Shown in pieces: positions 2,262-45,170 of a stretch of DNA of 64,000 bases. Under the pieces are notes generated by a model. The model was not told the origin of the DNA. It saw only the letters and a program-made list of their open reading frames with translations, and made no database searches. This stretch comes from Salvelinus alpinus. Lineage: Eukaryota; Chordata; Actinopteri; Salmoniformes; Salmonidae. Made by a program: the position numbers and the translations under genes. The DNA lies in contig NC_092091.1 in assembly GCF_045679555.1 (NCBI RefSeq), positions 92,460,190 to 92,524,189 of the forward strand. The letters run 5' to 3'. Position 1 is the first letter of the stretch. Every line of letters starts with the position of its first letter.

Positions 2262-3601
2262 AAATATAGACCTAATCCAGTCCATATCACTAGTAATATA
2301 GTCCTATTCCAGTCCATACCACTAGTAATATAGTCCTATTCCAGTCCATATCACTAGTAATATAGTCCTATTCCAGTCCATATCACTAGTAATATAGTCC
2401 TATTCCAGTCCATATCACTAGTAATATAGTCCTATTCCAGTCCATATCACTAGTAATATAGTCCTATTCCAGTCCATATCACTAGTAATATAGTCCTATT
2501 CCAGTCCACATCACTAGTAATATAGTCCTATTCCAGTCCATATCACTAGTAATATAATCCTATTCCCGTCCATATCACTAGTAATATAGTCCTATTCCAG
2601 TCCACATCACTAGTAATATAGTCCTATTCCAGTCCATATCACTAGTAATATAGTTCCAGTCCATATCACTAGTAATATAGTCCTATTCCAGTCCATATCA
2701 CTAGTAATATAGTCCTATTCCAGTCCATATCACTAGTAATATAGTCCTATTCCAGTCCATATCACTAGTAATATAGACCTAATCCAGTCCATATCACTGG
2801 TAATATAGTCCTATTCCGGTCCATATCACTAGTAATATAGTCCTATTCCAGTCCATATCACTAGTAATATAGTCCTATTCCAGTCCATATCACTAGTTAT
2901 ATAGACCTATTCCAGTCCATAGCACTAGTAATATAGTCCTATTCCAGTCCACATCACTAGTAATATAGTCCTATTCCAGTCCATATCACTAGTAATATAG
3001 TCCTAATCCAGTCAATATCACTAGTAATATAGTCCTATTCCAGTCCATATCACTAGTAATATAGTCCTATTCCAGTCCATATCACTAGTAATATAGTCCT
3101 ATTCCAGTCCACATCACTAGTAATATAGTCCTATTCCAGTCCACATCACCAGTAATATAGTCCTATTCCAGTCATATCACTAGTAATATAGTCCTATTCC
3201 GGTCCATATCACTAGTAATATAGTCCTATTCCAGTCATATCACTAGTAATATAGTCCTATTCCAGTCCACATCACTAGTAATATAGTCCTATTCCAGTCA
3301 TATCACTAGTAATACAGTCCTATTCCAGTCCACATCACTAGTAATATAGTCCTATTCCAGTCCATATCACTAGTAATATAGTCCTATTCCAGTCCACATC
3401 ACTAGTAATATAGTCCTATTCCAGTCATATCACTAGTAATATTGTCCTTTTCCAGTCCACATCACTAGTAATATAGTCCTATTCCAGTCATATCACTAGT
3501 AATATAGTCCTATTCCAGTCCATATCACTAGTGATATAAAACTATTCCAGTCCATATCACTAGTAATATAGTCCTATTCCAGTCCACATCACTAGTAATA
3601 T
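2262..3601 (+). repeat. 32-bp minisatellite, left part (~42 copies)
   Basis: This is a tandem array of a 32-bp unit containing CCAGTCCATATCACTAGTAA followed by TATAGTCCTATT. Variants include CATATC/CACATC, a 31-bp form missing one base, and sparse substitutions. The same array resumes at 7100 after a LINE insertion and runs into the assembly gap. Confidence 0.97.
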
Positions 3602-6600
3602 ATGTGCGCAGGCGCCGGAAAGAGATGGCTGCCTCGCTTCGCGTTCCTTGGAAAATATGCAGTATTTTGTTTTTTTACGTGTTATTTCTTACATCGGTAC
3701 CCCGGGTAATCTTAGGTTTCATTACATACAGTCGGGAGGAACTACTGAATATACGATTAACGTCAACTCATCATCGTTCCTACCAGGAATATGACTTTCC
3801 CGAAACGGATCCAGTGTCTTGCCTTCCACACAATACAATGGATCTGATCCCAGCCGGCGACCCTGTGCGTCGCCGGAAAAGGGGAAAACGTGGCGGTCTC
3901 GTGGTCAGGCTTCGGAGACGGGCACATCGCGCTCCACTCCCTAGCATACTACTCGCCAATGTCCAGTCTCTTGACAATAAGGTTGATGAAATCCGAGCAC
4001 GGGTAGCATTCCAGAGAGACATCAGGGATTGCAACGTGCTCTGCTTCACGGAAACATGGCTAACTCAAGGGACGCTAACGGAGTCGGTGCAGCCAGCTGG
4101 TTTCTCCATGCATCGCGCCGACAGAAACAAACATCTTTCCGGTAAGAAGAGGGGCGGGGGGGTATGCCTTATGATTAACGAGAAGTGGTGTGATCATCAT
4201 AACAACACACAAGAACTCAAGTCGTTCTGTTCACCTGATCTAGAACTCCTCACAATCAAATGTCGACCGCATTATCTACCAAGGGAATTCTCGTCAATCA
4301 TAATCACAGCCGTATACATTCCCCCCCAAGCAGACACATCGATGGCCCTGAACGAACTTTATCTGACTCTTTGTAAACTGGAAACCACACACCCTGAGGC
4401 TGCATTCATCGTAGCTGGGGATTTTAACAAGGCTAATCTAAAAACAAAACTCCCTAAATTCTATCAGCATATCGATTGTGCTACCAGGGCTGGAAAAACA
4501 CTAGACCATTGTTACACTAATTTCCGCGACGCTTATAAGGCCCTCCCCCGCCCCCCTTTCGGAAAAGCTGACCACGACTCCATTTTGTTGATTCCAGCCT
4601 ACAAACAAAAACTCAAACAACAAGCTCCCGCGCTCAGGTCTGTTCAACGCTGGTCCGACCAATCTGAATCCACGCTTCAAGACTGCTTCGATCACGCAGA
4701 TTGGAATATGTTCCGCATCGCGTCCAACAACAATATTGACGAATATGCTGATTCGGTGAGCGAGTTCATTAGGAAGTGCATTGACGATGTCGTACCCACA
4801 GCAACGATAAAAACATTCCCAAACCAGAAACCGTGGATTGACGGCAGCATTCGCGTGAAACTGAAAGCGCGAACCACTGCTTTTAACCAGGGCAAGGTGA
4901 CCGGAAGCATGACCGAATACAAACAGTGTAGCTATTCTCTCCGCAAGGCAATCAAACAGGCCAAGTCTCAGTACAGAGACAAAATCGAGTCGAAATTCAA
5001 CAGCTCAGACACAAGAGGTATGTGGCAGGGTCTGCAGTCAATCACGGATTACAAAAAGAAAACCAGCCCCGTCGAGGACCAGGATGTCTTGCTCCCAGAC
5101 AGGCTAAACAACTTTTTTGCCCGCTTTGAGGACAATACAGTGCCACTGACACGGCCCCCTACCAAAACCTGCGGGCTCTCCTTCACTGCAGCCGAGGTGA
5201 GTAAAACATTTAAACGTGTTAACCCTCGCAAGGCTGCAGGCCCAGACGGCATTCCCAGCCGCGTCCTCAGAGCATGCGCAGACCAGCTGGCTGGTGTGTT
5301 TACGGACATATTCAATCAATCCTTATCCCAGTCTGCTGTTCCCACATGCTTCAAGAGGGCCACCATTGTTCCTGTTCCCAAGAAAGCTAAGGTAACTGAG
5401 CTAAACGACTACCGCCCCGTAGCACTCACTTCCGTCATCATGAAGTGCTTTGAGAGACTAGTCAAGGACCATATCACCTCCACCCTACCGGACACCCTAG
5501 ACCCACTCCAATTTGCTTACCGACCCAATAGGTCCACAGACGACGCAATCGCAACCACACTGCACACTGCCCTAACCCATCTGGACAAGAGGAATACCCA
5601 TGTGAGAATGCTGTTCATCGATTACAGCTCAGCATTTAACACCATAGTACCCTCCAAACTCGTCATCAAGCTCGAGACCCTGGGTCTCGACCCCGCCCTG
5701 TGCAACTGGGTCCTGGACTTCCTGACGGGCCGCCCCCAGGTGGTGAGGGTAGGTAACAACATCTCCACCCCGCTGATCCTCAACACTGGGGCCCCACAAG
5801 GGTGCGTTCTGAGCCCTCTCCTGTACTCCCTGTTCACCCACGACTGCGTGGCCATGCACGCCTCCAACTCAATCATCAAGTTTGCGGATGACACTACAGT
5901 GGTAGGCTTGATCACCAACAACGACGAGACGGCCTACAGGGAGGAGGTGAGGGCCCTCGGAGTGTGGTGTCAGGAAAATAACCTCATACTCAACGTCAAC
6001 AAAACAAAGGAGATGATTGTGGACTTCAGGAAACAGCAGAGGGAGCACCCCCCTATCCACATCGACGGGTCAGTAGTGGAGAAGGTGGAAAGTTTTAAGT
6101 TCCTCGGTGTACACATCACGGACAAACTGAACTGGTCCACCCACACAGACAGCGTTGTGAAGAAGGCGCAGCAGCGCCTCTTCAACCTCAGGAGGCTGAA
6201 GAAATTCGGCTTGTCACCAAAAGCACTCACAAACTTCTACAGATGCACAATCGAGAGCATCCTGTCGGGCTGTATCACCGCCTGGTACGGCAACTGCTCC
6301 GCCCACAACCGTAAGGCTCTCCAGAGGGTAGTGAGGTCTGCAGAACGCATCACCAGGGGCAAACTACCTGCCCTCCAGGACACCTACACCACCCGATGTC
6401 ACAGGAAGGCCATAAAGATCATCAAGGACAACAACCACCCAAGCCACTGCCTGTTCACCCCGCTATCATCCAGAAGGCGAGGTCAGTACAGGTGCATCAA
6501 AGCAGGGACCGAGAGACTGAAAAACAGCTTCTATCTCAAGGCCATCAGACTGTTAAACAGCCACCACTAACATTTAGCGGCCGCTGCCAACATACTGACT

Positions 6601-11340: not shown

Positions 11341-11541
11341 AGCCAGCGACACTCTCAAACAAAGTCAACAACGCAGCCACTGCTAGCTAGCCCACTTCCG
11401 CAGTACTGTATCATTTTAATAATTTTGGTCAATAAGATTTCTGCAACGCAAGCTTAACTTTCTGAACATTCGAGACGTGTAGTTCACGTGTCATTCCAAT
11501 CTCCTTTGCATTAGCGTAGCCTCTTCTGTAGCCTGTCAACT

Positions 11542-14481
11542 ATGTGTCTGTCTATCCCTGTTCTCTCCTCTCTGCACAGACCATACAAACGCTTCACACC
11601 GCGTGGCCGCGGCCACCCTAACCTGGTGGTCCCAGCGCGCACCACCCACGTGGAGTCCCAGGTCTCCGGCAGCCTCTGGAACTGCCGATCTGCGGCCAAC
11701 AAGGCAGAGTTCATCTCAGCCTATGCTTCCCTCCAGTCCCTCGACTTCTTGGCACTGACGGAAACATGGATCACCACAGATAACACTGCTACTCCTACTG
11801 CTCTCTCCTCGTCTGCCCACGTGTTCTCGCACACCCCGAGAGCTTCTGGTCAGCGGGGTGGCGGCACCGGGATCCTCATCTCTCCCAAGTGGTCTTTCTC
11901 CCTTTCTCCCCTTACCCATCTGTCTATCGCCTCCTTTGAATTCCATGCTGTCACAGTTACCAGCCCTTTCAAGCTTAACATCCTTATCATTTATCGCCCT
12001 CCAGGTTCCCTTGGAGAGTTCATCAATGAGCTTGATGCCCTGATAAGCTCCTTTCCTGAGGACGGCTCACCTCTCACAGTTCTGGGTGACTTTAACCTCC
12101 CCACGTCTACCTTTGACTCATTCCTCTCTGCCTCCTTCTTTCCACTCCTCTCCTCTTTTGACCTCACCCTCTCACCTTCCCCCCCTACTCACAAGGCAGG
12201 CAATACGCTCGACCTCATCTTTACTAGATGCTGTTCTTCCACTAACCTCATTGCAACTCCCCTCCAAGTCTCCGACCACTACCTTGTATCCTTTTCCCTC
12301 TCGCTCTCATCCATCACTTCCCACACTGCCCCTACTCGGATGGTATCGCGCCGTCCCAACCCTCGCTCTCTCTCCCCCGCTACTCTCTCCTCTTCCATCC
12401 TATCATCTCTTCCCTCTGCTCAAACCTTCTCCAACCTATCTCCTGATTCTGCCTCCTCAACCCTCCTCTCCTCCCTTTCTGCATCCTTTGACTCTCTATG
12501 TCCCCTATCCTCCAGGCCGGCTCGGTCCTCCCCTCCTGCTCCGTGGCTCGACGACTCATTGCGAGCTCACAGAACAGGGCTCCGGGCAGCCGAGCGGAAA
12601 TGGAGGAAAACTCGCCTCCCTGCGGACCTGGCATCCTTTCACTCCCTCCTCTCTACATTTTCCTCTTCTGTCTCTGCTGCTAAAGCCACTTTCTACCACT
12701 CTAAATTCCAAGCATCTGCCTCTAACCCTAGGAAGCTCTTTGCCACCTTCTCCTCCCTCCTGAATCCTCCTCCCCCTCCTCCCCCCTCCTCCCTCTCTGC
12801 AGATGACTTCGTCAACCATTTTGAAAAGAAGGTCGACGACATCCGATCCTCGTTTGCTAAGTCAAACGACACCGCTGGTTCTGCTCACACTGCCCTACCC
12901 TGTGCTCTGACCTCTTTCTCCCCTCTCTCTCCAGATGAAATCTCGCGTCTTGTGACGGCCGGCCGCCCAACAACCTGCCCGCTTGACCCTATCCCCTCCT
13001 CTCTTCTCCAGACCATTTCCGGAGACCTTCTCCCTTACCTCACCTCGCTCATCAACTCATCCTTGACCGCTGGCTACGTCCCTTCCGTCTTCAAGAGAGC
13101 GAGAGTTGCACCCCTGCTGAAAAAACCTACACTCGATCCCTCCGATGTCAACAACTACAGACCAGTATCCCTTCTTTCTTTTCTCTCCAAAACTCTCGAA
13201 CGTGCCGTCCTTGGCCAGCTCTCCCGCTATCTCTCTCAGAATGACCTTCTTGATCCAAATCAGTCAGGTTTCAAGACTAGTCATTCAACTGAGACTGCTC
13301 TTCTCTGTATCACGGAGGCGCTCCGCACTGCTAAAGCTAACTCTCTCTCCTCTGCTCTCATCCTCCTAGACCTATCGGCTGCCTTCGATACTGTGAACCA
13401 TCAGATCCTCCTCTCCACCCTCTCCGAGTTGGGCATCTCCGGCGCGGCCCACGCTTGGATTGCGTCCTACCTGACAGGTCGCTCCTACCAGGTGGCGTGG
13501 CGAGAATCTGTCTCCTCACCACGTGCTCTCACCACTGGTGTCCCCCAGGGCTCTGTTCTAGGCCCTCTCCTATTCTCGCTATACACCAAGTCACTTGGCT
13601 CTGTCATAACCTCACATGGTCTCTCCTATCATTGCTATGCAGACGACACACAATTAATCTTCTCCTTTCCCCCTTCTGATGACCAGGTGGCGAATCGCAT
13701 CTCTGCATGTCTGGCAGACATATCAGTGTGGATGACGGACCACCACCTCAAGCTGAACCTCGGCAAGACGGAGCTGCTCTTCCTCCCGGGGAAGGACTGC
13801 CCGTTCCATGATCTCGCCATCACGGTTGACAACTCCATTGTGTCCTCCTCCCAGAGCGCTAAGAACCTTGGCGTGATCCTGGACAACACCCTGTCGTTCT
13901 CAACTAACATCAAGGCGGTGGCCCGTTCCTGTAGGTTCATGCTCTACAACATCCGCAGAGTACGACCCTGCCTCACACAGGAAGCGGCGCAGGTCCTAAT
14001 CCAGGCACTTGTCATCTCCCGTCTGGATTACTGCAACTCGCTGTTGGCTGGGCTCCCTGCCTGTGCCATTAAACCCCTACAACTCATCCAGAACGCCGCA
14101 GCCCGTCTGGTGTTCAACCTTCCCAAGTTCTCTCACGTCACCCCGCTCCTCCGCTCTCTCCACTGGCTTCCAGTTGAAGCTCGCATCCGCTACAAGACCA
14201 TGGTGCTTGCCTACGGAGCTGTGAGGGGAACGGCACCTCAGTACCTTCAGGCTCTGATCAGGCCCTACACCCAAACAAGGGCACTGCGTTCATCCACCTC
14301 TGGCCTGCTCGCCTCCCTACCACTGAGGAAGTACAGTTCCCGCTCAGCCCAGTCAAAACTGTTCGCTGCTCTGGCACCCCAATGGTGGAACAAACTCCCT
14401 CACGACGCCAGGACAGCGGAGTCAATCACCACCTTCCGGAGACACCTGAAACCCCACCTCTTCAAGGAATACCTAGGATAG
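11542..14481 (+). CDS. L2 LINE endonuclease-reverse transcriptase (intact, 979 aa)
   Basis: The N-terminal APE-type endonuclease (about residues 45-260) shows 'NCRSAANKAEF', 'ALTETWI', 'RGGGTGILI', 'YRPPG', 'GDFNLP', 'NTLDLIF' and 'SDHYLVSF'. A Ser/Pro-rich spacer follows. The reverse transcriptase (about 500-770) contains 'NNYRPVSLLSFLSKTLERA', 'LLDLSAAFDTVNH', 'GVPQGSVLGPLLFSLY' and the catalytic 'CYADDTQLIF'. The C-terminal part carries 'SRLDYCNSLLAGLP', typical of the L2 clade. The ATG at 11542 is the first in the open frame. No interruption is seen, and endonuclease and polymerase signature residues are present, so it may be competent. Codon use is strikingly C/T-rich in the N-terminal half. 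Confidence 0.94.
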   Translation: MCLSIPVLSSLHRPYKRFTPRGRGHPNLVVPARTTHVESQVSGSLWNCRSAANKAEFISAYASLQSLDFLALTETWITTDNTATPTALSSSAHVFSHTPRASGQRGGGTGILISPKWSFSLSPLTHLSIASFEFHAVTVTSPFKLNILIIYRPPGSLGEFINELDALISSFPEDGSPLTVLGDFNLPTSTFDSFLSASFFPLLSSFDLTLSPSPPTHKAGNTLDLIFTRCCSSTNLIATPLQVSDHYLVSFSLSLSSITSHTAPTRMVSRRPNPRSLSPATLSSSILSSLPSAQTFSNLSPDSASSTLLSSLSASFDSLCPLSSRPARSSPPAPWLDDSLRAHRTGLRAAERKWRKTRLPADLASFHSLLSTFSSSVSAAKATFYHSKFQASASNPRKLFATFSSLLNPPPPPPPSSLSADDFVNHFEKKVDDIRSSFAKSNDTAGSAHTALPCALTSFSPLSPDEISRLVTAGRPTTCPLDPIPSSLLQTISGDLLPYLTSLINSSLTAGYVPSVFKRARVAPLLKKPTLDPSDVNNYRPVSLLSFLSKTLERAVLGQLSRYLSQNDLLDPNQSGFKTSHSTETALLCITEALRTAKANSLSSALILLDLSAAFDTVNHQILLSTLSELGISGAAHAWIASYLTGRSYQVAWRESVSSPRALTTGVPQGSVLGPLLFSLYTKSLGSVITSHGLSYHCYADDTQLIFSFPPSDDQVANRISACLADISVWMTDHHLKLNLGKTELLFLPGKDCPFHDLAITVDNSIVSSSQSAKNLGVILDNTLSFSTNIKAVARSCRFMLYNIRRVRPCLTQEAAQVLIQALVISRLDYCNSLLAGLPACAIKPLQLIQNAAARLVFNLPKFSHVTPLLRSLHWLPVEARIRYKTMVLAYGAVRGTAPQYLQALIRPYTQTRALRSSTSGLLASLPLRKYSSRSAQSKLFAALAPQWWNKLPHDARTAESITTFRRHLKPHLFKEYLG

Positions 14482-31897: not shown

Positions 31898-32065
31898 CAG
31901 TACCCCAACACTGTTACTATCCATTCTACCATTAGGATGGTACCCCAACACTGCTACTATCCATTCTACCATTAGGTTGGTACCCCAACACTGTTACTAT
32001 CGATTTTACCATTAGGTTAGTACCCCAACACTGTTACTATCCATTCTATCATTAGGTTGGTACCC
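31898..32065 (+). repeat. ~40-bp minisatellite overlapping the NLR stop codon
   Basis: Four to five copies contain TACCCCAACACTGTTACTAT then CCATTCTACCATTAGG. On the minus strand the first copy supplies the last codons and the TAA of the NLR gene. Confidence 0.92.
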
Positions 32066-32386
32066 CAACACTGTTGATCTGAAGCTCTGTGCAAAGATAG
32101 GGGTCCAGCTCCACTAGAAGGATGACCATCCTGGAACTTGACTCATTTCCTTTTCTCAACACCATGTCGATGATGACTCGTGCCTTCTCTGCCCTCTCAG
32201 CTATCACCTTCACTGACTCCATTTCCTCCTGGTTGATGACTGTGTGTTGCAAGAGTCTGTCCAGCAGACCATCCAGGACAGGTCCTGATACTCGTTTCAA
32301 AAACTCTGTCCGTACAGAACGCAGCTGCTGCTCTGTAGAACCAGTCAGACTGCTTTCAGCCGGACCTCCTGCCCCCAACACAGCAC
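32052..32386 (-). CDS. NLR exon 19: C-terminal CARD
   Basis: The last exon encodes a ~95-residue death-fold domain: '[20 protein letters not shown]', '[17 protein letters not shown]', '[13 protein letters not shown]' and '[13 protein letters not shown]'. The six-helix pattern and the 'VIN..E' loop fit CARDs of the NLRP1/ASC/caspase-1 group. The final residues NSVGVPT and the TAA fall in the 40-bp minisatellite. Confidence 0.88.
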
Positions 32387-35300
32387 CTGAGAGAGTCAGG
32401 TTACAAAATAACTACATTTGTACATTTACATTTCAGACATTTAGAAGCAGAATCCTAAAATAAAAGTATTGAGAAAATATTATATTTTACAATAACGACC
32501 TGAACATATCACATATTCACATTTAGGGATGGTTTCACAGACATAGAAAAACAGTCTGGGTCATTCAGAACCAGGCTAATCTACATCAAGTCCTGGAGGA
32601 GATGTCATTGTTTTTGAGACAGTCTTTTATAATCAGGACTAGTCCAGGTCCTACAGTAAACCATGTTGACTGGCCCTCAAGTCATTGGTTTGTATCTCTC
32701 ATGTTTACTTACTAGTTGAATGGGTTTCAGTGATGTATTCATCTGAAAGAAACAGAAATAGGTTTTATCACTCTAAATAGCATCTGTCAGAAAAAAACAC
32801 AGTTATGATTGACATCTGCTCCTACCTATTGGTACCATCTCACTCCATACTGTCCTCTCATCATCCCCGATTAACTCCATCTCAATGTCAACCCCTGTGT
32901 TTCTCATGATCATCTTACAACAGCTTGGTGTGGTGTCTGCAGGTAATAGCTGAATCTTCTGTAGGAGGCCATATGGTGCAACGATTGAGACAACAGACAG
33001 AGAGAAATAGTGAAATAGAATGATATTACAGTTATTCATATACAATATGACAGATTCATGTCCTCAGCCTTATAAAACTGCACCTCTGGATTGATGGAAG
33101 TGGAGTGGGGATTCTTGAGTGCAAACCAACTGTTCAGCTTTAAAGACCCGTTTGGACTTGACAGGACCAATTCTGAATATCCTTTGGACACCTGATTTTT
33201 CTCCCGTTCCTGAACAGCCTACAAAATGAGCAATGTAGTAGTCAGTCAGAACAATGTAGTCTCGTAATTCACACATTATACAGCTAATGAATGTTACAAC
33301 AGAAATAGATTTCTCACAGAGCTGCATGTTGTCTTTGTAATCTAGAGATTTTCAACAAACTATCAGCTTTCCTTTAGTAAGTTTCAACATACTGTTGTCA
33401 CTTCAATGATAGTGCCTCACCTCTTTCTGACTGGAGTTTCTGAGGAGCAGGTACAGCCTTGAAATTACTGTTGACCTTTTTACTGCCATATAGAGGACCA
33501 CGTCACAGTGGACATCTATGTTCCAAGAAAAGATATAGCTCAGTATAACAGAGATAGTTGAGAACTTGGGATGGAGAATCTTAGCATGGAATCTGGTGAC
33601 CTCATGCACTTCCTCTAAAGACACTCCATGTTCCTCTACATGAAGAATCTTCATCTCATTCCTCAGGGAAGGGTTGGTCCCTGAACAACACAATAAAAGG
33701 AGACAGAAAGACAAATATTGTATTATTCATCCTACTAAAACACAAATAATATGCAGTAGCAGATCACAGTAAACTCAAACTCCCAGAATAGTTAATTCAT
33801 TAATTCAGGAAGTGAAACTCAGTTACATGGAAATGTCTTTCTGAATACTATTTCTATATGGTTTTACCTAAACAGACAAAGTGTGGCAGATGAACTTCCT
33901 CCAGTTCACCTAACTCCATAGTGATGTCCAGCAATGGACCACCTTGTGTGTACTGCATGTCTTTCAGAAGTTCACTGTAGGGTTCCCAGTTCCTGAAGTG
34001 ATACTTCAGAATGACATCTCTCTCACACAGCCAGCGGAGGCCAGACACTGTGCACTCATAACTCCCTTTGGGTGTCCTGTGTCTGAGGGCAACAACAAGA
34101 TATGGTAGAGAGGGTCAATGGTCAAATGGAGAGGTTGGATTAGAAGAATATTCCCAAAGGTAATGGGGAAATACACTAGCAAGTGGAATGAAATGTTAAA
34201 AGTAGTTATTTTACCTGAACATTGTCACTCCCTGGACAGTGGAAGTCAAGGGTTCAATCTGAAGCCAGTGTGTGGAGTCCTGAACAAGGACAAGCATGTC
34301 AGTAATACATATGGGGCCTGTTTCCTGGACACAGATTGAGTCTACTGCTGGACTAAATGCATGCTCAATGGAAGTTTCAATAGAAAGTTCTTTAAGGTCC
34401 AGGACTAGACTTAATCTGTGTCTGGGAAACTGGCCCATTAACCAAAGTAACTAATCTAATGTATTTATTCAATGTTACATGGAATGCTGGGGATTTATCA
34501 ATTAAACTGTCTAATGACAAAATCTGACAACAGCTAAAATCCTGCATACCTACAAGCAGAACACAGGACTGTCTATATCCCAGTATGAATGGTTGGTCAG
34601 TACACACCTGGCGTTGAGACTGTGTTCATATTACTAAAGCAGAACACAGGGCTGTCTATATCCCAGTATGAATGGTTGGTCAGCACACCTGGCTTTGAGA
34701 CTGTGTTTATATTACTAAAGCAGAACACAGGACTGTCTATATCCCAGTATGAATGGTTGGTCAGTACACACCTGGCTTTGAGACTGTGTTTATATTACTA
34801 AAGCGGAACACAGGACTGTCTATATCCCAGTATGAATGGTTGGTCAGTACACACCTGGCTTTGGGACAGTGTTTATATTACTAAAGTAGAACACAGGACT
34901 GTCTATATCCCAGTATGAATGGTTGGTCAGTACACACCTGGCTTTGAGACTGTGTTTATATTACTAAAGCAGAACACAGGACTGTCTATATCCCAGTATG
35001 AATGGTTGGTCAGTACACACCTGGCTTTGAGACTGTGTTTATATTACTAAAGCAGAACACAGGACTGTCTATATCCCAGTTTGAATGGTTGGTCAGTACA
35101 CACCTGGCTTTGAGACTGTGTTTATATTACTAAAGCAGAACACAGGACTGTCTATATCCCAGTATGAATGGTTGGTTGGTACACACCTGGCGTTGAGACT
35201 GTGCCTGACTCCTGCAGGTATGTAAAAGTAAGAATTGACATTATGACTTACCTCAACATGGTCACAGGTCTTACAGCTCTGAGGAATCCCTGAAGTCAAA

Positions 35301-38300
35301 AGTAGTTATTTAAAATGGACAATCTCATGTAATAACTAACTAATAATTATTAAATAGACCTCTAATAAAAATGAATATAAGTGAGCAACAGTCTCAGAAT
35401 GTACATTCATTAGCATACCATAATCTGACATTAGTGTTATATTAATTAATGTTTGTGGAAGCAGGAAACAACATCGTTCTAATCCATGTTTTGTAGATGT
35501 TGGGGTCTGATTTCTGGTAGATCCTAGGATGAGAGCTTAAAGGTAGCTTAAAGGAGTCAAAAGGAAGGAGTCAAAAGCTTAAAGGAGTCAGCTAAATTAT
35601 GTTGTACGAGCAGCACCACAGATATTGTGATGAGCAAGATGCCTGACTTCTCTCTCACAGTCACACACAGTATCTGCTCATGTGCAAGGGTTCTCTTCAC
35701 TCTCTTACAGACTGTTAGCCACGGGACCAAAACAGCAGAGAAGTTTAGCCTTGTGCTCCAACACTCTTAGTTGTTGTAGAAATTGACCCACTATGCTGTT
35801 TACTTTGTGCTTCTACGTCATATCGCTGACTCACCCTTTATTAAGTTTGTTTTGACCAAATAGATCGTGATTGTGTTCCTTGCCTGGGAATCAACTATAA
35901 TGAACGCTTTAAAACTATTTTGATTTAAAAACAATTAAATCAAATAACACTCACATTTCTCAGGTCCAGGCTTGATACAACACTCTCCACCATGGTCTCT
36001 GGTGTTCTCAGGTCCAGGTTTGATCCAACTCTCTCCACCATGGTCTCTGGTGTCCTCAGGTCCAGGCTTGATCCAACACTCTCCACCATGGTCTCTGGTG
36101 TCCTCAGGTCCAGGCTTGATCCAACTCTCTCCACCATGGTCTCTGGTGTCCTCAGGTCCAGGCTTAATCCAACACTCTCCACCATGGTCTCTGGTGTTGG
36201 TAAAACAGTAGGATAGACTGTGATTAAACTAAACTAAATACAACTTATTAAGGCTTGATATAACATACATACAGTCGTCATAGGCAATACAAAGGGTGTT
36301 TAAAGGTTGACAGACTAGCTCCCTATGTAGGGCACATTACCTAAATGTGACATAACCCACTATGTCACCTTCCATAAAGTCAATACTGATGGTGACATTT
36401 AACTAGGCACAGTCTAACTGTCTGTAGGTCCAACAGAACACATTAAAACACACCACCACTACTAATCTAACTGTCTGTAGGTCCAACAGAACACATTAAA
36501 ACACACCACTACTACTAATCTAACTGTCTGTAGGTCCAACAGAACACATTAAAACACACCACTACTACTAATCGAACTGTCTGTAGGTCCAACAGAACAC
36601 ATTAAAACACACCACTACTACTAATCTAACTGTCTGTAGGTCCAACAGAACACATTAAAACACACCACTACTACTAATCTAACTGTCTGTAGGTCCAACA
36701 GAACACATTAAAACACATCACTACTACTAATCTAACTGTCTGTAGGTCCAACAGAACACATTAAAACACACCACTACTACTAATCTAACTGTCTGTAGGT
36801 CCACCAGAACACATTAAAACACACCACTACTACTAATCTAACTGTCTGTAGGTCCACCAGAACACATTAAAACACACCACTACTACTAATCTAACTGTCT
36901 GTAGGTCCACCAGAACACATTAAAACACACCACTACTACTAATCTAACTGTCTGTAGGTCCACCAGAACACATTAAAACACACCACTACTACTAATCTAA
37001 CTGTCTGTAGGTCCACCAGAACACATTAAAACACACCACTACTACTAATCTAACTGTCTGTAGGTCCAACAGAACACATTAAAACACACCACTACTACTA
37101 ATCTAACTGTCTGTAGGTCCACCAGAACACATTAAAACACACCACTACTAATGTAATTATACGAATGATTCCAGAGGAAAACAAATGATAAAACATTGCT
37201 ATGACTCACCTCTGAATGTGTTGGTCATCTATCTGATACAGGGTCACTGAAGAGGAGATGGAGGAAACCCCAAACCCAGGATGGAGGGGTTCAGTGAATG
37301 TGGTGTGTCTTGTGTAACGGTGTGTCAGTGTACCAGAGGAGGACACACTATAGAAGGACAAAGTACCAGCTGGCCAGTCCAGATACACACCAACTCTGTT
37401 AGGAACAGGACCAGGGATGGATCTGCTACTGACTCCAGCATGGTAAAAGTGATGACCACTGTCAGAGCAGACTAAACACCAGGACATCCTATTGGCTCCA
37501 ATCCTGCGGTCATCCCTCCATCCATTCCTCATCAATCCTTTGTACACCACACCAATGACAGTCATGCCACCATCCCAGTAACCATCCATCTCCACCTCCC
37601 AGTAATAACGAGATCCAGATAAGCCTTCTCTGCAGAGAAATTGTGGAAAACAATCAAATCTGTCTGGATGGTCTTCATAATGCTGCTTCTCTTTCACACA
37701 TGTCACCTTCCTGTTCCCCTCAGACAGTTTCAGGTGTGGGTGTGCTGTATTTGGGTCCAGGGTGAGATGACAGGCATCTGTAGACAAAATGAGAGTTTAA
37801 TCAAACCACATCTTCATATAACATTTTGTTTTGTAGTTACAGAACAAGTATTGATGAGTTACTATGTTACAATAGTTCTGAATATTCAGTTAATTAGGAT
37901 TGAAGAGACTTACATTTCCTCAGCCCTGATTTCAGCCTGCACTCTCCACCATGATCCACACTGTAGGAGAAACAGGTTATTGACTGACAAAGACCTAATA
38001 AAGCAGTCAACATTTAAACCATATTGTTGTGTTCTGGTGCACTATCCAAGTTCATTACTAGAGACATACAGGTATTCTATCCTACCTACTGCATACAGAA
38101 CGGAGTACAATTCATTACTAGAGACATACAGGTATTCTATCCTACCTACTGCATACAGAACGGAGTACAATTCATTACTAGAGACATACAGGTATTCTAT
38201 CCTACCTACTGCATACAGAATGGAGTACAATTCATTACTAGAGACATACAGGTATTCTATCCTACCTACTGCATACAGAACGGAGTACAATTCATTACTA

Positions 38301-41300
38301 GAGACATACAGGTTTTCTATCCTACCTACTGCATACAGAATGGAGTACAATTCCAACAGGATATCAGAGATGCAGAAGAAGAGTATTCATGTGGTGATGA
38401 TGTATGCTGTGATGGAGTGCTCAGCCTGCTGAGTAAACTTCCCCTTAATTCTACCATCATGTCCTCATGTTACTGATCCTACTACACTACATAGGACACA
38501 ACCGCTGCTCACACTATTAGGACATCTATTCTGACTTACTTCAGCTTCATCAGTTTATATGTGGGATCCACCAGAGCAGCTGAAAGCAGTCCCCCTGCAG
38601 AGTCTCCTGGGTGATTGTAGCTCAGGTCCAGCTCTTTCAGGTGGGAGGGGTTTGACCTCAGAGCTGAAGACAGAGCAGCACAGCCCTCCTCTGTGACCAG
38701 ACAGCCAGACAGCCTACAGAGAGACACAACAGCTGTCTAGGTTGGTGTACTGGTGTCAATCATCTTGTAGGACACCCATACATTTGTCCATGACACAAAC
38801 ATTGTGATAAAACATCAGATTTATACAGTATTTGTTTTACTAAGCTCAGTACCGACCTGACTGAAACAGCTGTACTTACCCCAGTGTGTGTAGTTTACAG
38901 TCTGGATCCTCCAGTCCAGCAGACAGCAGTGTAACTCAGCTCAGTACCGACCTGACTGAAACAGCTGTACTTACCACAGTGTGTGTAGTTTACAGTCTGG
39001 ATCCTCCAGTCCAGCAGACAGCAGTGTAACTCCTGAGTCCTGCAGGTCATTGTCTCTCAGCTCCAGTTGTTTCAGTTGTGAGTTGGGTGAACTCAGGACT
39101 GAGGCCAGATCTGAACAGCAACCCTCTGTCAGACCACATTGACCTAGACTAGAGGGCAGAAGAGCACATGATTAAAACATGTTTAAAACATCCACATAAT
39201 AACTCATACTGAAGATATTTAACTCACTGTTATGGGAATTTTATGAATAATGACTAAATGAGGTATACATTTAACGTAGAATTATAACTAACATAATTAT
39301 TTCTTGTCTGATGAATAATGTTTGTCCATAAGAAAGAGGGACTGTTGGTAGGCAAGGAACTGTGGTAGACAACTTGTGACCACTGTGGAACTGATAACAG
39401 GGAAGGAAGTCTCCCCACCCAGGGAGGGGAGAAACCTTGGGCTTGTAGTAGATTGTATAACAGGTGAGGGTCAATGTAAGACTTGTGAACTATGTTGTAT
39501 CTGAGAGAAGGAGGGACGTTTATGATGAAATGTGAGGTATATAGACCAATGTACCGGAAATGATAAGCAGAACGTTCGGGTAAATAAACATTTGACTTTG
39601 GTAGACTGGGCCTCTGTCTGTTTTTATTTCTATCAGTATCCTACAAATCCTGATATAGCAGACTGAGTAATTTAATTTAATTGGTTAACTTCTTTGATAT
39701 AGGGGGCAGCATTTTCACTTTTGGATGAATTGCGTGCCTATAGTGAACTGCCTCCTACTCTGTCCCAAATGCTAATATATGCATATTATTATTACTATTG
39801 GATATAAAACACTCTGATGTTTCTAAAAATGTTTTAATGATGTCTGTGAGTATAACAGAAATCATATGGCAGGCAAAAACCTGAGAAACAATCCAAACAG
39901 GAAGTGAGAATTCTGAGATGGGTCGATGTTAAAGTCATCGCCTATTTAATTCCCTGTAATATATGGATCTGTTTGCACTTCCTACGCCTTCCACTAGATG
40001 TCAATAGTCTGTAGAACGCTGAATGAAGCCTCTAGTGTGATGTGGGGCCGGATGGGAGGTGTTTCAGTCACTGGTCTGGCAGATTGCCAGTTCTTGCTCA
40101 CACGCTTTCCCCATGATATCGCCTTGCGTTCCATTACTTATACAGACATGAAGAAATGCTTCGGTTGGAACGTTATTGGATATATATGATAACAACAATC
40201 TGAAGATTGATTCTCTACTAAGTTTGACCAGTTTATTCGACTTGTAATATAACTTTTTGAAGTTTTCGTCCAACGTTTGCCTGCATCTGCGCGAGCGTTT
40301 GGACACGCAAAATAAGCTAAGTAGCAAAAGTAGCTAATTGGACATAAGTAATTGACATTATCGAACAAAACAACGATTTATTGTGGAACTAGGATTCCTG
40401 GGAGTGCATTCTGATGAACATAATCAAAGGTAAGGGAATATTTATGATGTAATTTCGTATTTCTGTTGACACCAAAATGGCGGAGAAATGTTGTTAAATC
40501 TGAGCGCTGTCTCAGATTAATGCATGGTGTGCTTTTTACATAAAGTTTTTTTTAAATCTGACACAGCGGTTGCATTAAGAACAAGTGTATCTTTAATTCT
40601 GTGTAAAACATGTATCTTTCATCACAGTTTATGATGAGTATTTCTGTTATTTGACGTGGCTCTCTGTAATTACTCCGGATATTTTAGAGGCATTTCTGAA
40701 CATGGAGCCAATGTAAACCGAGATTTGTGGATATAAATATGCACATTATCGAACAAAACATAAATGTATTGTGTAACATGATATACTATGAGTGTCATCT
40801 GATGAAGATCATCAAAGGTTAGTGATTCATTTTCTCTCTATTTCTGCTTTTTGATACTACTATCTTTTGCTGGGAAAATGGCTGTGTTTTTCTGTGGCTA
40901 TGTACTAAGCTAACATAATCGTTTGGTGTGCTTTCCCCGTAAATCCTTTTTGAAATCAGACATGTTGGCTGGATTCACAACACGTGTAGCTTTACTTTGG
41001 TGTCTTTCATGTGTGATTTCATGAAAGATTGATTTTTATAGTAATATATTTGAATTTGGCGCGCTACATTTTTTCTGGATTTTGGCCAAGTGGGACGCTA
41101 CCGTCCCACCTATCCCAGGGAAGTTAAAGAATATGAGAACTTAATTCTCTTAACACTCACACTAGTCTCTGTATATTGCAGAGTGGACTGGTTAGTCCAA
41201 CACAGAGCAGATCCACTCCTCTGTCTCCCAGATCATTGTAGCTGAGGTCCAGTTCTCTCAGGGGGGAGTTCGGTGTCTGCAGAGCTGAGGCCAGAGTCTT

Positions 41301-44300
41301 ACAGGATTCATATGTGATTTTACAGCCAGCCAGTCTGGAGAGAGGAGATATGTTGACACACTGTTAAATATGCAAAGATTTAAGAATAATGAGATGCATT
41401 AAGACAATAACAGAAGGACATGATTAGACTATGTTAAAGACATACTAACTCACTCAATATATTTAACCTTAGTTTCTTATATTTATCACATTGTATGTAT
41501 GTTTCTGCATATTTACCATGATGGTAAAATAATGTTAAAACATTATAACACATAATTACTACAGATATAAACACTATAAAGACAGTGGATACTGAAGATA
41601 TTTAACTCACACAAGTGTCTGTATGTTGCGGAGTGGACTGGTTAGTCCAAAACAGAGCAGCTCCACTCCTCTGTCTCCCAGGTCATTGTAGCTGAGGTCC
41701 AGTTCTCTCAGGTGGGAGTTTGGTGTCTGCAGAGCTGAGGCCAGAGTCTTACAGGATTCATATGTGATTTTACAGCCAGCCAGTCTGGAGAGAGGAGATA
41801 TGTTGACACACTGTTAAATATGCAAAGATTTAAGAATAATGAGATGCATTAAGACAATAACAGAAGGACATGATTAGACTATGTTAAAGACATACTAACT
41901 CACTCAATATATTTAACCTTAGTTTCTTATATTTATCACATTGTATGTATGTTTCTGCATATTTACCATGATGGTAAAATAATGTTAAAAACACAATAAC
42001 ACATAATTACTACAAATATAAACACTATAAAGACAGTGGATACTGAAGATATTTAACTCACACAAGTGTCTGTATGTTGCAGAGTGGACTGGTTAGTCCA
42101 ACACAGAGCAGAATCACTACAAAGTCTCCCAGGTCATTGTAGCTGAGGTCCAGTTCTCTCAGGGGGGAGTTTGGTGTCTGCAGAGCTGAGGTCAGAATCT
42201 CCCAGGATTCATATGTGAGTTTACAGCGATCCAGTCTGGAGAGAGGAGATAATCAGTTAGATATAATCAGTTAGATAATGATACTGTAAACATCAACTCA
42301 ATAACAGAACTCACAGTGCTCTCTTGCAGGTTTTCACGACCGGCAGCAACCTCTGATAACCTTTCTCTGATGTGTTGTATGTCTTCAGGTCAAACTCCTC
42401 CAGCACCTCCTCTGACATCAGTAACAGGTAGGCCAGGGCTGAACATTGGTCAGGTTTAAGCTCTGTTTCTGAAAGAGTTCCTGAATGCAGGGAGGTCTGC
42501 ATGTCTTCAACTAGAGAGTTGGCACCAAGTTCATTCAGACAGTGGAACAAGTTGATGATCCTTTCTGGTGAGGATTCCTCCTCGATCTTGTATGAAAGGT
42601 ACCTGACTGTTCTCTTAACTGTTTCCTCATTGGTCTGTGTTGTACTTCCTGTCTGTGTCAGAAGGCCTCGTAACAGATTCTGATTGGACTCCAGTGAGAG
42701 ACCCAGAAGGAAGCGGAGGAACAGGTCCAGGTGTCCATTCTCACTCTTCAAGGCCTGGTCCACTGCGCTCCTGTGTAAGTCAGACAACTGGATTGACTTC
42801 TTCTCTTCATCATCACTAGTGGGGGAGAAAACATTTTCCTTCTTGTCCAGACATGATTCTAAAGCATGCACTGCTGCTAGAAACTCCTGAATGCTCAGAT
42901 GCACAAAGCTGTAGACCTTCTCTTGGTACAGCCCAGATTCTTCTTTAAAGATCTCTGTACACAATGCTGAGTACTCTGATGCCTCTGTGACATCAAGGCC
43001 ACACTCTCTCAGGTCCTCCTCATAGAAGATCAGGTTGCCCTTCTGCAGCTGTTGGAAAGCCAGCTTTGCCAGTTTCAGGATCATCTCTTTGTCTGACTGA
43101 GACAGTTCCTTTGGGTTTGTCTCTGTGGCTTTGTTGTACTTCTTGTTCTTCACAATGATTTGGATGAGCATGAAGTGTGAGTACATTTGGGTCAGAGTTT
43201 TGGGGACTTCATCCTTCTCTGCCACTTTCAGTATCATCTCAAGGACAGTGGCTGATATCCAACAGAAGACTGGCATGTGGCACATGATGTGGAGGCTCCT
43301 TGATGTCTTCATGTGTTTGATGATATCATTGGCCAGATTCTGATCTGTGATTTTCTTCCTGAAGTACTCCTCCTTCTGTGGATCATTGAACCCTCGTACC
43401 TCTGTCACCTGGTCAACACACTCAGGAGGGATCTGATTGGCTGCTGCAGGCCGTGAGGTTACCCAGAGGAGAGCAGAGGGAAGCAGATTCCCCTCGATGA
43501 GGTTTGTCAGCAGCACGTCCACTGAGGTTGGCTTCGTGACATCACAGCACTTCTCATTGTTTTTGAAGTCTAGAGGAAGTCGAGACTCATCCAGACCATC
43601 AAAAATGAAAACAGTTTTGGTTTCACCATCTTCAATGCTGTCAATCTCTTTCAGCTCTGGGAAGTAGTGGGAAAGAAGTTGCATCAGACTGCATTGGTCC
43701 TTTTTCAGGTTCAGATCACGGAAAGGAAGAGGAAACATGAAATGAACGTCCTGATTTGCTTTTCCCTCTGCCCAGTCAAGGATGACCTTCTGCACAGAGA
43801 CTGTTTTTCCAATGCCAGCGATTCCTTTTGTCAGCACAGTTCTGATAGGTTTGTCTTGTCCAGGTAAAGGCTTGAAGATGTCGTTGCATTTGATTGATGT
43901 CTCTTGTGTAGTTTGTTTCTTGGATGCCATCTCTATCTGTCTAACCTCATGTTCATTATTGAGCCCTCCACTTCCACCCTCTGTGATGTAGAGCTCTGTG
44001 TAGATATCCTTGAACAGACTTTGGTTTCCATGGTGTCCAATTCCTTCAGATATGTGTTGATACTTGTGTTTCAGTTTAGCCTTAATGTCTTGTTGGACTG
44101 TCAGCAGAGTTTGCCCTGTAGGAAAACAATGAGAGTTGAGACTCATAAGTTTGTTTGTGTGTTTTATAAGGTCCTTTGTACAGTTCTTTGTAATATTGAA
44201 TGAAACACAGTCTTACTTCTTCTGTCCAGAAGGTTGTGTGTGATCTTTAATGCATCCTCACTGTCCAAACTCTCCACTTCCTTATTGTCATCTGGTAATG

Positions 44301-45170
44301 GTTCCTGGCTGAAAGCAGGTGGCTGATCACTCTTCATTGATAGCAGGCTGGTTGTAGGTGACTCTGCTCTGGGCTTCTGGACACTGAACAAAACAGGGAG
44401 ACAGATCAGCTCATCAATATCTCATCAATACCTCATCTACTTCATTTTAACAACAACAATTTAAATTGATGATATAGACCTACAGTTTATGTAATATGGG
44501 AACACTTTTCTCTTTAGTTTATATCTTTAAGATAACTGTATATTTTACATTTAATCTCTTACCTTTTAGAACTGGTGTTTTGAGTCATTTTAGAGGCAGT
44601 TGTGTCCTCTCTCTCCCCAGAGAGACTCATTTTAGAGGCAGTGGTCCCCTCCTCTCTCTCCCCAGAGAGACTCATTTTAGAGGCAGTGGTCCCATCCTCT
44701 CTCTCCCCAGAGTGACACATTTTAGAGGCAGTGGTCCCGTCCTCTCTCTCCCCAGAGAGACTCATTTTAGAGGCAGTGGTCCCCTCCTCTCTCTCCCCAG
44801 AGAGACTCATTTTAGAGGCAGTGGTCCCCTCCTCTCTCTCCCCAGAGAGACTCATTTTAGAGGCAGTGGTCCCCTCCTCTCTCTCCCCAGAGAGACTCAT
44901 TTTAGAGGCAGTGGTCCCCTGCTCTCTCTCCCCAGAGAGACTCATTTTAGAGGCAGTGGTCCCCTCCTCTCTCTCCCCAGAGAGACTCATTTTAGAGGCA
45001 GTGGTCCCCTCCTCTCTCTCCCCAGAGAGACTCATTTTAGAGGCAGTGGTCCCCTGCTCTCTCTCCCCAGAGAGACTCATTTTAGAGGCAGTGGTCCCCT
45101 CCTCTCTCTCCCCAGAGAGACTCATATTAGAGGCAGTGGTCCCCTCCTCTCTCTCCCCAGAGAGACTCAT
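32052..45170 (-). CDS. NLR: FISNA-NACHT-LRR-B30.2-FIIND-CARD (19 exons, 1,835 aa)
   Basis: Predicted cytosolic innate immune sensor. Exons, 5' to 3' on the minus strand: 45170-44563, 44383-44217, 44115-42315, 42235-42062, 41784-41611, 41334-41161, 39148-38975, 38713-38540, 37960-37914, 37777-37210, 36190-35955, 35289-35252, 34279-34215, 34082-33868, 33680-33421, 33218-33084, 32958-32826, 32742-32713, 32386-32052. All junctions are GT-AG and phases agree throughout (5,508 nt). FISNA-NACHT plus B30.2 is the fish NLR-C pattern. FIIND-CARD is the NLRP1/CARD8 pattern, in which autoproteolysis frees a UPA-CARD fragment that nucleates caspase-1 filaments. No stop or frameshift breaks the chain. The start is the first ATG of the open N-terminal repeat. 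A 5' UTR exon further upstream is possible. The alternative is two genes, one ending at the B30.2 exon and one FIIND-CARD gene, but the in-phase donor and the downstream exon repeats argue against it. Confidence 0.82.
32713..32958 (-). CDS. NLR exons 17-18: end of UPA and linker
   Basis: Exon 17 (32826-32958) ends the UPA with '[12 protein letters not shown]' and '[13 protein letters not shown]', which parallels the NLRP1 segment before its CARD. Exon 18 (32713-32742, 30 nt) is a short linker, [10 protein letters not shown]. Phases are 1 and 1. Confidence 0.8.
33084..35289 (-). CDS. NLR exons 12-16: FIIND (ZU5 and first part of UPA)
   Basis: Exons are 35252-35289, 34215-34279, 33868-34082, 33421-33680 and 33084-33218. 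ZU5 features include '[16 protein letters not shown]' and '[12 protein letters not shown]', matching the NLRP1/CARD8 FIIND. Exon 15 has His1552 in 'KILHVEEHG' and Phe1578-Ser1579 in 'HPKFSTIS'. The His-to-Ser spacing of 27 residues equals that of human NLRP1 His1186 to Ser1213 as I recall it. Autoproteolysis at Phe-Ser is therefore predicted. UPA continues through '[12 protein letters not shown]' and '[10 protein letters not shown]'. Confidence 0.88.
34581..35200 (+). repeat. ~83-bp intronic minisatellite, 8 copies
   Basis: The unit contains 'CAGTATGAATGGTTGGTCAG', 'CACACCTGGCTTTGAGAC' and 'ACTAAAGCAGAACACAGG'. It lies in the intron between FIIND exons 12 and 13. Confidence 0.95.
35955..36190 (-). 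CDS. NLR exon 11: five tandem 16-aa linker-like repeats
   Basis: Five 48-bp units encode DHGGE(C/S)[10 protein letters not shown], alternating Cys and Ser at one position. The unit resembles the exon 9 linker ([11 protein letters not shown]), so it probably grew from a copy of that exon. Phase 2 in and phase 1 out match exons 10 and 12. Each unit starts after ACACCAG, so each could serve as a splice acceptor. Confidence 0.8.
36413..37150 (+). repeat. 53-bp intronic minisatellite, ~14 copies
   Basis: The unit contains 'CTAACTGTCTGTAGGTCCA' then 'GAACACATTAAAACACACCA' and a CTA run. It lies between the B30.2 exon and exon 11. Confidence 0.95.
37210..37777 (-). CDS. NLR exon 10: B30.2 (PRY-SPRY) domain
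   Basis: The exon is 568 nt (residues ~1165-1353). PRY starts '[20 protein letters not shown]' and the SPRY core has '[15 protein letters not shown]', 'SWCLVCSD', '[18 protein letters not shown]' and 'LHPGFGV'. B30.2 domains bind proteins and usually end fish NLR-C receptors. Here the frame meets TGA only inside the donor CAGAG|GTGAGT, so splicing removes the stop and joins to exon 11 in phase 2. Without splicing the protein would end 'QHIQR'. Confidence 0.93.
37914..37960 (-). CDS. NLR exon 9: linker before B30.2
   Basis: This 47-nt exon encodes '[15 protein letters not shown]', the short linker usually found between LRRs and B30.2 in fish NLR-C proteins. The acceptor is CTACAG and the donor is AAAT|GTAAGT. 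Phases are 2 in, 1 out. Confidence 0.85.
38046..38355 (+). repeat. 60-bp intronic minisatellite, 5 copies
   Basis: The unit contains 'TTCATTACTAGAGACATACA' and 'CTACCTACTGCATACAGAA'. It lies between the last LRR exon and the linker exon. Open frames on both strands come from the 60-bp period. Confidence 0.95.
38540..42235 (-). CDS. NLR exons 4-8: five 174-nt LRR exons
   Basis: Exons 42062-42235, 41611-41784, 41161-41334, 38975-39148 and 38540-38713 are each exactly 174 nt with phase 2 at both ends, so each could be skipped or duplicated without breaking frame. Each encodes two ribonuclease-inhibitor-type repeats, e.g. '[13 protein letters not shown]'. The first three are near copies, including the introns between the first two (41340-41610 and 41790-42060), so they arose by recent tandem duplication. 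Confidence 0.94.
38843..39032 (-). repeat. 95-bp tandem duplication of the 3' end of an LRR exon
   Basis: 38843-38937 repeats 38938-39032 and so copies the last ~58 nt of exon 7 with its donor and intron start. The copy lacks an acceptor. Use of the second donor would add 95 nt and shift frame. Confidence 0.85.
39229..39647 (+). mobile_element. possible solo LTR in the intron between LRR exons 6 and 7
   Basis: About 420 bp start TGTTATGGGAATT and could end TATCCTACA, with AATAAA near 39583. No clear target duplication was found, so the call is weak. Confidence 0.4.
39685..41127 (+). mobile_element. TTAA-ended non-autonomous element (piggyBac-like?), intronic
   Basis: The ends read TTAACTTCTTTGATATAGG and, inverted, TTAACTTCCCTGGGATAGG, giving imperfect 19-bp terminal inverted repeats that start at TTAA. 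There is no ORF. Internal modules such as 'TCTGATGAA(G/C)ATCATCAAAGG' recur. Two more family members lie at 45290-46285 and 46889-48725. A TTAA target would suggest piggyBac, but this is inference. Confidence 0.65.
42315..44383 (-). CDS. NLR exons 2-3: FISNA and NACHT ATPase
   Basis: Exon 2 (44217-44383) encodes an acidic linker. Exon 3 (42315-44115, 1,801 nt) holds the FISNA domain (about residues 259-340, '[10 protein letters not shown]') and the NACHT. The P-loop is 'GIAGIGKT' at 356-363 and Walker B is '[11 protein letters not shown]' with FDGLDE at 430-435. '[11 protein letters not shown]' (sensor region), '[12 protein letters not shown]' and '[11 protein letters not shown]' follow, all typical of fish NLR-C. 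All catalytic motifs are intact, so ATP-driven oligomerisation is expected. Confidence 0.95.
44563..45170 (-). CDS. NLR exon 1: thirteen N-terminal 15-aa repeats
   Basis: The exon encodes 13 units of [15 protein letters not shown] (variants EQ, ED, MCHS, one 14-aa unit) and a short tail MTQNTSSK. The DNA unit is 45 bp. Every unit starts with ATG, so translation could start at several places. One more degenerate unit upstream has ACC instead of ATG and is preceded by an in-frame stop. The donor AAAG|GTAAGA overlaps the ORF stop. Similar MSLSGE repeats occur at the N terminus of fish NLR-C proteins. Confidence 0.85.

Follow-up and report, generated by a model that had tools for sequence, protein, structure and literature searches.

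The 64,000-nucleotide stretch analyzed here, called the window below, covers positions 92,460,190 to 92,524,189 of contig NC_092091.1 of Salvelinus alpinus. Its minus strand carries, from 45170 down to 32052, a predicted NLR gene in which a fish NLR-C, B30.2 domain included, runs on into a FIIND-CARD tail.

Results

We rebuilt the gene model from the window. Its 19 minus-strand exons give a spliced product of 1,835 amino acids with one terminal stop, the phases agree at every junction, and all introns are GT...AG, which reproduces the nineteen in-phase exons with canonical splice sites of a first-pass annotation. From the N to the C terminus the product has repeats, FISNA-NACHT-LRR, B30.2, a repeat linker, FIIND (ZU5-UPA), and CARD. 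Exon 10 (37210..37777), which encodes B30.2 (PRY-SPRY), ends in the donor CAGAG|gtgagt; the TGA inside this donor would be the stop codon if the exon were left unspliced. At the level of the gene model, we confirmed that bypass of the B30.2 stop by this donor makes one predicted gene of the NLR-C and FIIND-CARD parts.

Exon 1 (44563..45170), with the first ATG at 45170, holds 45-bp tandem repeats (14.2 copies, 15-residue units) and is followed by a linker exon that precedes FISNA (exon 2, 44217..44383). Exon 3 (42315..44115) encodes FISNA, NACHT with the Walker A motif GIAGIGKT, the winged helix, and HD2. Then come LRR exons of 174 nucleotides each: exons 4 (42062..42235), 5 (41611..41784), 6 (41161..41334), 7 (38975..39148), and 8 (38540..38713). 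Exon 9 (37914..37960), 47 nucleotides long, precedes the B30.2 exon. Behind B30.2 lie exon 11 (35955..36190), made of five 48-nucleotide units of 16 residues each, and exon 12 (35252..35289), a linker with a CKTC motif leading into FIIND. The ZU5 part of FIIND starts in exon 13 (34215..34279) and continues through exon 14 (33868..34082); exon 15 (33421..33680) spans the ZU5/UPA boundary, and UPA fills exons 16 (33084..33218) and 17 (32826..32958). After a 30-nucleotide linker (exon 18, 32713..32742), exon 19 (32052..32386) encodes a CARD of class A, as defined below (Pfam match 32330-32079), and closes with the stop TAA at 32054-32052. The stop codon and the last 24 nucleotides of the CARD exon sit within a 40-bp tandem repeat (31900-32075). 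Just after the B30.2 exon, intron 10 is mostly a 53-bp repeat (36413-37150, 13.9 copies), whose units contain the acceptor-like string CCTACAG.

The domains named at first pass, FISNA, NACHT, SPRY, FIIND, and CARD, all matched Pfam in translated exons. Single exons matched FISNA (1.2e-31), NACHT (2.7e-34), PRY (9.9e-22), SPRY (1.3e-13), FIIND (3.1e-23 and 5.4e-10), and CARD (2e-15), as well as the winged helix and HD2; the one LRR exon scanned matched LRR_6 under its cut-off. With the tail spliced, FIIND matched at 1.4e-37, CARD at 1.8e-14, and UPA at 3.3e-17, contiguously over positions 1-116 of the 117-position profile. A match of exon 1 to DeaD_C was low complexity and was disregarded. The sole junction that is not obvious is the exon 16 donor, CCAGAG|gtgcag after 33084. 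An alternative, ATT|gtatat, breaks the frame, and the UPA profile supports GAG|gtgcag, which is also kept in the 11 paralogues where exon 16 aligns from its start; the other 9 are too diverged for comparison.

The first-pass annotation described a single NLR gene. One model does span both parts, but it is one member of an array of about 21 copies. A FIIND search of the whole genome (2.37 Gb) gave at least 122 matches. On the window's contig (C6 in our numbering, 101,172,370 bases), 21 FIIND first-half exons lie between 89.4 and 93.3 Mb, the window's included; a further fragment at 94.9 Mb was excluded from counts as the 22nd match. More matches, several of them clustered, lie on C2 (94.5-96.2 Mb), C31 (22.4-22.8 Mb), C1 (26.3-26.8 Mb), C25, C24, and C18.

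For the paralogues, we compared a 10-kb stretch at each of the remaining 20 C6 loci (L009-L028). The window's exons recur there in the same order and on the same strand, and for exons 9 to 17, where found, the splice sites are nearly always identical. Exons 13, 14, and 15 are free of stops in 21/21 copies. The B30.2 exon was detected in 18 of the 21 loci; it was not seen within the fetched 10 kb of L009, L013, and L026. Its frame is intact in 17 of the 18 copies, in which length changes are multiples of three (L012 is frameshifted), and the stop-bypassing donor, CAGAG or CAAAG|gtgagt, is likewise kept in 17/18, being lost in L020. Pieces of the NACHT exon occur in four stretches (L020, L021, L022, and L027); most stretches end before the place where it is expected. 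A genome-wide CARD search found a same-strand CARD downstream of all 21 FIIND loci, 1.8 to 17.7 kb away and with no FIIND intervening, and by their place these CARDs probably belong to the same genes. A CARD of class B without an assigned FIIND lies at C6:92567252 (+; L048).

Public proteins contain the same architecture. Searching with residues 1300-1835 returned 328 proteins, and we analyzed the best 120. With the window's domains as probes, 50 of these 120 have the complete order NACHT-LRR-B30.2-repeat-ZU5-UPA-CARD; in the rest, one or more parts are missing or the CARD is undetected by probes derived from the window. Among the genera represented are the salmonids Oncorhynchus, Salmo, Salvelinus, and Coregonus; Megalobrama, Labeo, Rhinichthys, Pimephales, and Alosa contribute more distant homologues. 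The composite order, which the first-pass annotation had proposed looking for in other teleost proteomes, is thus present in automatic protein models from salmonids, cyprinids, and one Alosa, and another search, started from cyprinids (best 120 of 4825 analyzed), added further proteins of this order. Two array members are already represented as fused genes among the NCBI models, since the Salvelinus alpinus protein P0008 has a B30.2 100% identical to that of L025 and P0054, also from S. alpinus, has one 100% identical to those of L016 and L019; over its whole length, P0008 shares 83% identity with the window model. One of the names given to such fused models is 'NACHT, LRR and PYD domains-containing protein 5-like'. 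Because the paralogues repeat the exon order, strand, and splice sites, and the NCBI models of two neighboring members join the same parts, the exon model is not a product of chance.

Some of the listed proteins differ from this plan. P0092, from Megalobrama amblycephala, has four tandem B30.2 domains, each after a motif like that of the 47-nucleotide exon, and then FIIND-CARD. P0084, P0089, and P0090 have FIIND with no NACHT among their listed domains; P0084 (Salmo trutta) and P0089 (Esox lucius) are named SAMD9-like.

We then considered the FIIND. Aligned to NLRP1 (6x6c) and CARD8 (7jkq), the window FIIND carries His1552, Glu1561, and Phe1578-Ser1579 where those proteins have their catalytic residues. 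All are encoded in exon 15, the His at 33642-33640, the Glu at 33615-33613, and the predicted cut Phe1578|Ser1579 at 33564-33562|33561-33559. We take the Glu1561 position to be catalytic. Among the 104 of the 120 listed homologues that span the cut site, counted by alignment, His, Glu, and Phe-Ser are all kept in 93 and Phe-Ser in 104/104; a count by regular-expression motif (65/120) was too strict and was superseded. The 11 exceptions are P0049, with Asn for His, P0107 (Alosa), with Lys for Glu, and nine cypriniform B30.2-FIIND proteins in which Ser or Thr replaces His (P0092, P0104, P0105, P0109, P0111, P0113, P0115, P0119, and P0120; P0115 also has Gln for Glu). Mutating the equivalent His is reported to abolish cutting in NLRP1 and CARD8 (PMC8081665). 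The cypriniform FIINDs that lack the His and keep Phe-Ser may stay uncut or use another residue.

The 21 array CARDs fall into two classes with no BLAST match between them. Class A (n=11) comprises the window and L010, L011, L014, L016, L017, L018, L019, L025, L026, and L027; class B (n=10) comprises L009, L012, L013, L015, L020, L021, L022, L023, L024, and L028. The nearest solved structures to the window CARD are ICEBERG (7.2e-10) and caspase-1 (1.7e-9), with CARD8 at 0.0017 and no match to ASC or NLRP1 at E values up to 0.01. For the class B CARD of L015 the ranking starts with ASC (5gpq), a GBP-like protein, more ASC, CARD8, and NLRP1; caspase-1 comes close to its end. The tail had been called NLRP1-type at first pass. 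This holds for the catalytic residues of FIIND but not for the window CARD, which is nearest to ICEBERG and caspase-1; it is the sister class that is ASC/NLRP1-like.

CARDs within the genome gave a similar picture. As references we used 20 of the CARD places without FIIND. One of them, L049 (on C22), adjoins a same-strand caspase domain, as does L055 (on C21), although both caspase matches read through stops, as introns can produce; the nearest solved relatives of L049 are ICEBERG and caspase-1. L056 has ASC as its nearest solved relative and is ASC-like by its CARD; it may be the charr ASC gene. Against L049, class A CARDs (n=11) reached 51-58 bits, and class B CARDs (n=10) gave either no match or no more than 16 bits. 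Against L056, class B scored 29-42 bits; class A scored 15-26 bits against this CARD and L060, both ASC-like. The top reference is L050, which has no caspase match alongside, for 9 of the 11 class A CARDs, and L059 or L061 for class B. By sequence, then, class A resembles caspase-1 and class B resembles ASC/NLRP1.

The B30.2 exon does not follow this division. Its codons are identical in L015 (class B) and L017 (class A), and the window is one change from both; L018 (A) and L023 (B) also have near-identical B30.2 exons. Between the window and L017, identity is 99.7% across 41416-35396 and drops toward the end of the gene, to 80% at 32965-32731. The window and L018 have similar tails (94.8% over 34624-32557) and different B30.2 exons. 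Over 17 copies, the mean B30.2 distance is 0.112 both within and between CARD classes, and 2641 of 5000 permutations gave a difference as large. Exon 16 distance, by comparison, tracks CARD class (12/5000 permutations; 12 copies), and exons 15 and 17 do so less strongly (291 and 234 of 5000). B30.2 similarity does not predict CARD class.

The earlier proposal of a variable recognition domain stood: across the copies, DNA identity to the window is 78-100% for B30.2 and 97-99% for exon 14, and B30.2 is far more divergent than exons 7, 8, and 14. With the frameshifted L012 excluded from the exon 10 analysis, 17 copies gave 136 pairs with a mean nonsynonymous divergence (dN) of 0.127 and a mean synonymous divergence (dS) of 0.097, dN exceeding dS in 109/136. 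The corresponding means of the FIIND exons are 0.014 and 0.026 for exon 14 and 0.099 and 0.143 for exon 15. The ratios of mean dN to mean dS are thus 0.55 (exon 14), 0.69 (exon 15), and 1.31 (B30.2). The dN excess of B30.2 is no more than suggestive, and we do not claim positive selection. A structure predicted from the 17 array sequences is weak (mean predicted local distance difference test score, pLDDT, 57.9) and matches PRY-SPRY structures; on this weak model, variable sites are somewhat commoner off the strands (P = 0.037, residues 44-184).

A 47-bp exon precedes B30.2 in zebrafish NLR-B30.2 genes (PMC11192531), and we liken exon 9 to it by length and place, not by sequence. Exon 11 is a single 44-nucleotide unit in six paralogues and five in-frame 48-nucleotide units in the window. 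Its last unit shares 29 of 44 bases with exon 9 in an ungapped alignment with the same exon end, a score reached by 0 of 2000 shuffles (best, 27), and we read exon 11 as a probable copy of exon 9. The inner units end in CACCAG (36148, 36100, 36052, and 36004), resembling the exon's own acceptor; the linker could therefore vary by splicing in steps of 16 amino acids.

To place the family we built two trees. For FIIND, 220 sequences, the window model included, were reduced to 201 with a hit, 182 after length filtering, and 39 after clustering at 85%; P0107 and P0114 are long-branched and unsure in their placement. B30.2 is present in 133 of the 201 ZU5-UPA sequences, a set chosen by similarity. 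These 133 have CARDs of class A in 52 cases, class B in 51, and neither in 30, and the 68 sequences without B30.2 have class B in 53, class A in 5, and neither in 10. On the ZU5-UPA tree, well-supported branches require B30.2 to have changed between presence and absence at least five times, with gain and loss indistinguishable. The NACHT tree has 40 sequences hand-picked from the 220, with the characterized zebrafish NLRP1 outside it. Salmonid members group with a pike protein without B30.2, and cypriniform members with cypriniform NLR-C. P0174 and P0189, named NLRP1 homolog, and P0169, all with FIIND and without B30.2, stand apart on very long branches (100/100); P0212, named NLRP1a, falls on the FISNA side of this tree. 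These groupings fit an independent assembly in cypriniforms and salmonids; the alternative is one old fusion followed by exchange.

Elsewhere in the window, two long open reading frames on the plus strand (3535-6570 and 11515-14481) encode reverse transcriptase and endonuclease domains and are, by these domains, LINE-type retrotransposons.

Discussion

We think that the window gene is probably a working member of an array of about 21 composite NLRs, with a variable LRR/B30.2 arm, a self-cutting FIIND, a releasable UPA-CARD, and B30.2 exons reassorted against two CARD outputs. From the sequence we infer the following course of events. The transcript would be spliced across the B30.2 stop, and LRR and B30.2 would form the variable sensing arm for a ligand. 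FIIND would cut itself at Phe1578|Ser1579, after which the N-terminal part would keep UPA-CARD bound without a covalent link. A pathogen activity that perturbs or destroys this part would free UPA-CARD to nucleate an inflammasome and signal, as in NLRP1 and CARD8. In those proteins, functional degradation is described as loss of the N-terminal part that frees the C-terminal fragment (PMC7483925), and UPA is reported to contribute to CARD self-oligomerization (PMC7794386). A class A CARD, such as the window's, is predicted to engage caspase-1 with less need for ASC, and a class B CARD to nucleate ASC. The B30.2 exon would be reassorted across the array against these two alternative outputs. More tentatively, and with slightly less than even confidence, we propose that the array mixes sensor and output modules: recombination would pair each B30.2 exon with either FIIND-released CARD, caspase-1-like or ASC/NLRP1-like, and the composite would have been assembled more than once in teleosts, or B30.2 repeatedly lost and regained.

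A number of findings speak against this picture. Intron 11 contains an AATAAA (35842), and neither AATAAA nor ATTAAA was found within 2.3 kb past the CARD stop. Four salmonid models (P0085, P0101, P0110, and P0116) go from B30.2 into the repeat with no FIIND match, and P0094 passes from the repeat to CARD; the FIIND-less models are either short forms or bad models. The array CARDs were assigned as the nearest on the same strand, one of them 17.7 kb distant. Resemblance of a CARD is no proof of its partner: among solved CARDs, class A is closest to ICEBERG, which was identified as an inhibitor (PMC7555848). Ratios of dN to dS above 1 also occur in exons 8 (3.16, from few changes), 16 (1.81), and 17 (1.39), and the mean dN of exon 17 (0.170, with dS 0.122) is above the 0.127 of B30.2, which gives no support to B30.2 as the most divergent domain. 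The bootstrap 95% range of the B30.2 dN excess is -0.005 to 0.070 (11 distinct copies), and zero likewise lies within the ranges of FIIND exons 14 and 15. Finally, the B30.2 of zebrafish NLRP3 is reported to be without influence on caspase activity (PMC8122782, PMC9978379), and because of this a sensing role of the window B30.2 is unproven.

Could the model be two genes merged by gene finders, an NLR-C that ends at the B30.2 stop and, downstream of it, an independent FIIND-CARD gene? Left unspliced, the B30.2 exon reaches its TGA one codon later, and ten FIIND-less NLR-C homologues end 0-4 residues past the B30.2 match. But the stop lies inside a donor that is kept in 17/18 copies and phase-matched to exon 11, and neither AATAAA nor ATTAAA was found in intron 10. 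In cyprinids and in several genera of salmonids, automatic models unite both parts, and members of the FIIND family continue past B30.2 into the repeat; five of these lack a FIIND match. From the donor, the intron 10 signals, and the automatic models, we regard two genes as quite improbable. We give even less credence to a decaying array, in which most copies, the window's included, would be pseudogenes or assembly mosaics. The frameshift in L012, the lost donor in L020, and the three fetched stretches without a B30.2 exon (L009, L013, and L026) are what decay would leave, and misassembly could also give such mosaics. Against this, the reading frame of the window copy is uninterrupted, no copy has a stop in exons 13-15, and length changes in exon 10 preserve the frame in all copies but one.

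The remaining alternative concerns what the gene would do. A released class A CARD could act as a decoy that caps caspase-1 and dampens inflammasomes, with class B members as the activators. This is a real alternative because the nearest solved relative of class A, at an E value ahead of that for caspase-1 itself, is an inhibitor (PMC7555848). However, CARD8 is described as a FIIND-released CARD able to recruit caspase-1 directly (PMC7483925), and the UPA implicated in CARD self-oligomerization of NLRP1 and CARD8 (PMC7794386) is kept here. We consider a brake unlikely, if somewhat less so than a merger of two genes, and favor an activating member of the array.

Known systems resemble parts of this protein. 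With NLRP1 (human, rat, and zebrafish) and CARD8 it shares ZU5-UPA, the catalytic His and Glu, Phe-Ser and, for NLRP1, the order NACHT-LRR-FIIND-CARD. Unlike them, it has FISNA and, between LRR and FIIND, the 47-nucleotide exon, B30.2, and the repeat linker; its CARD is nearest to ICEBERG and caspase-1, and in the tree its NACHT is far from two cypriniform NLRP1 homologs. Teleost NLR-C/NLR-B30.2 genes likewise have N-terminal repeats, a single 1.8-kb exon for FISNA-NACHT, LRR exons, a 47-nucleotide exon, and a B30.2 exon, but in the window B30.2 is not terminal and a predicted splice joins it to the FIIND-CARD part. Zebrafish and flounder NLRP3 (PYD-NACHT-LRR-B30.2) is also an inflammasome NLR with B30.2 (PMC9978379); its output is an N-terminal PYD, and no FIIND or CARD is named in the available part of that source. 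Group 6 NLR-C of the round goby has a C-terminal CARD and a recent local expansion (PMC6988351) but is described there without B30.2.

In the literature searched (fish NLR, NLRP1, and NLR-B30.2 topics, with subscription journals mostly outside) we found no description of FIIND-CARD and B30.2 in one protein. Some fish NLRPs are said to carry B30.2 'or' FIIND-CARD (PMC11508797), and fish NLRP1 is given as NACHT-LRR-FIIND-CARD (PMC12436146, PMC9978379). The part of PMC8122782 available to us does not mention the combination, and FIIND is absent from the main texts of PMC4852459, PMC2268669, PMC6988351, and PMC11192531. The first-pass remark that no characterized protein was known with both in this order stands for this literature, but the order is common among automatic fish protein models. 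What is new is that the array ends, judging by its predicted CARDs, in two dissimilar classes; the B30.2-FIIND-CARD order itself was already in the automatic models.

Fish have hundreds of NLR-C genes whose function is mostly unclear, and few of the zebrafish ones carry a death-fold domain (PMC11192531). Through the composite family, one B30.2 branch would gain a built-in output of known mechanism, and B30.2 specificity could therefore be read directly as FIIND release. The near-identical B30.2 exons on two CARD classes form naturally matched pairs in which the effect of the CARD could be tested. If sensor and output modules are indeed mixed across the array, the same ligand could drive two inflammasome programs, or an activator and a brake.

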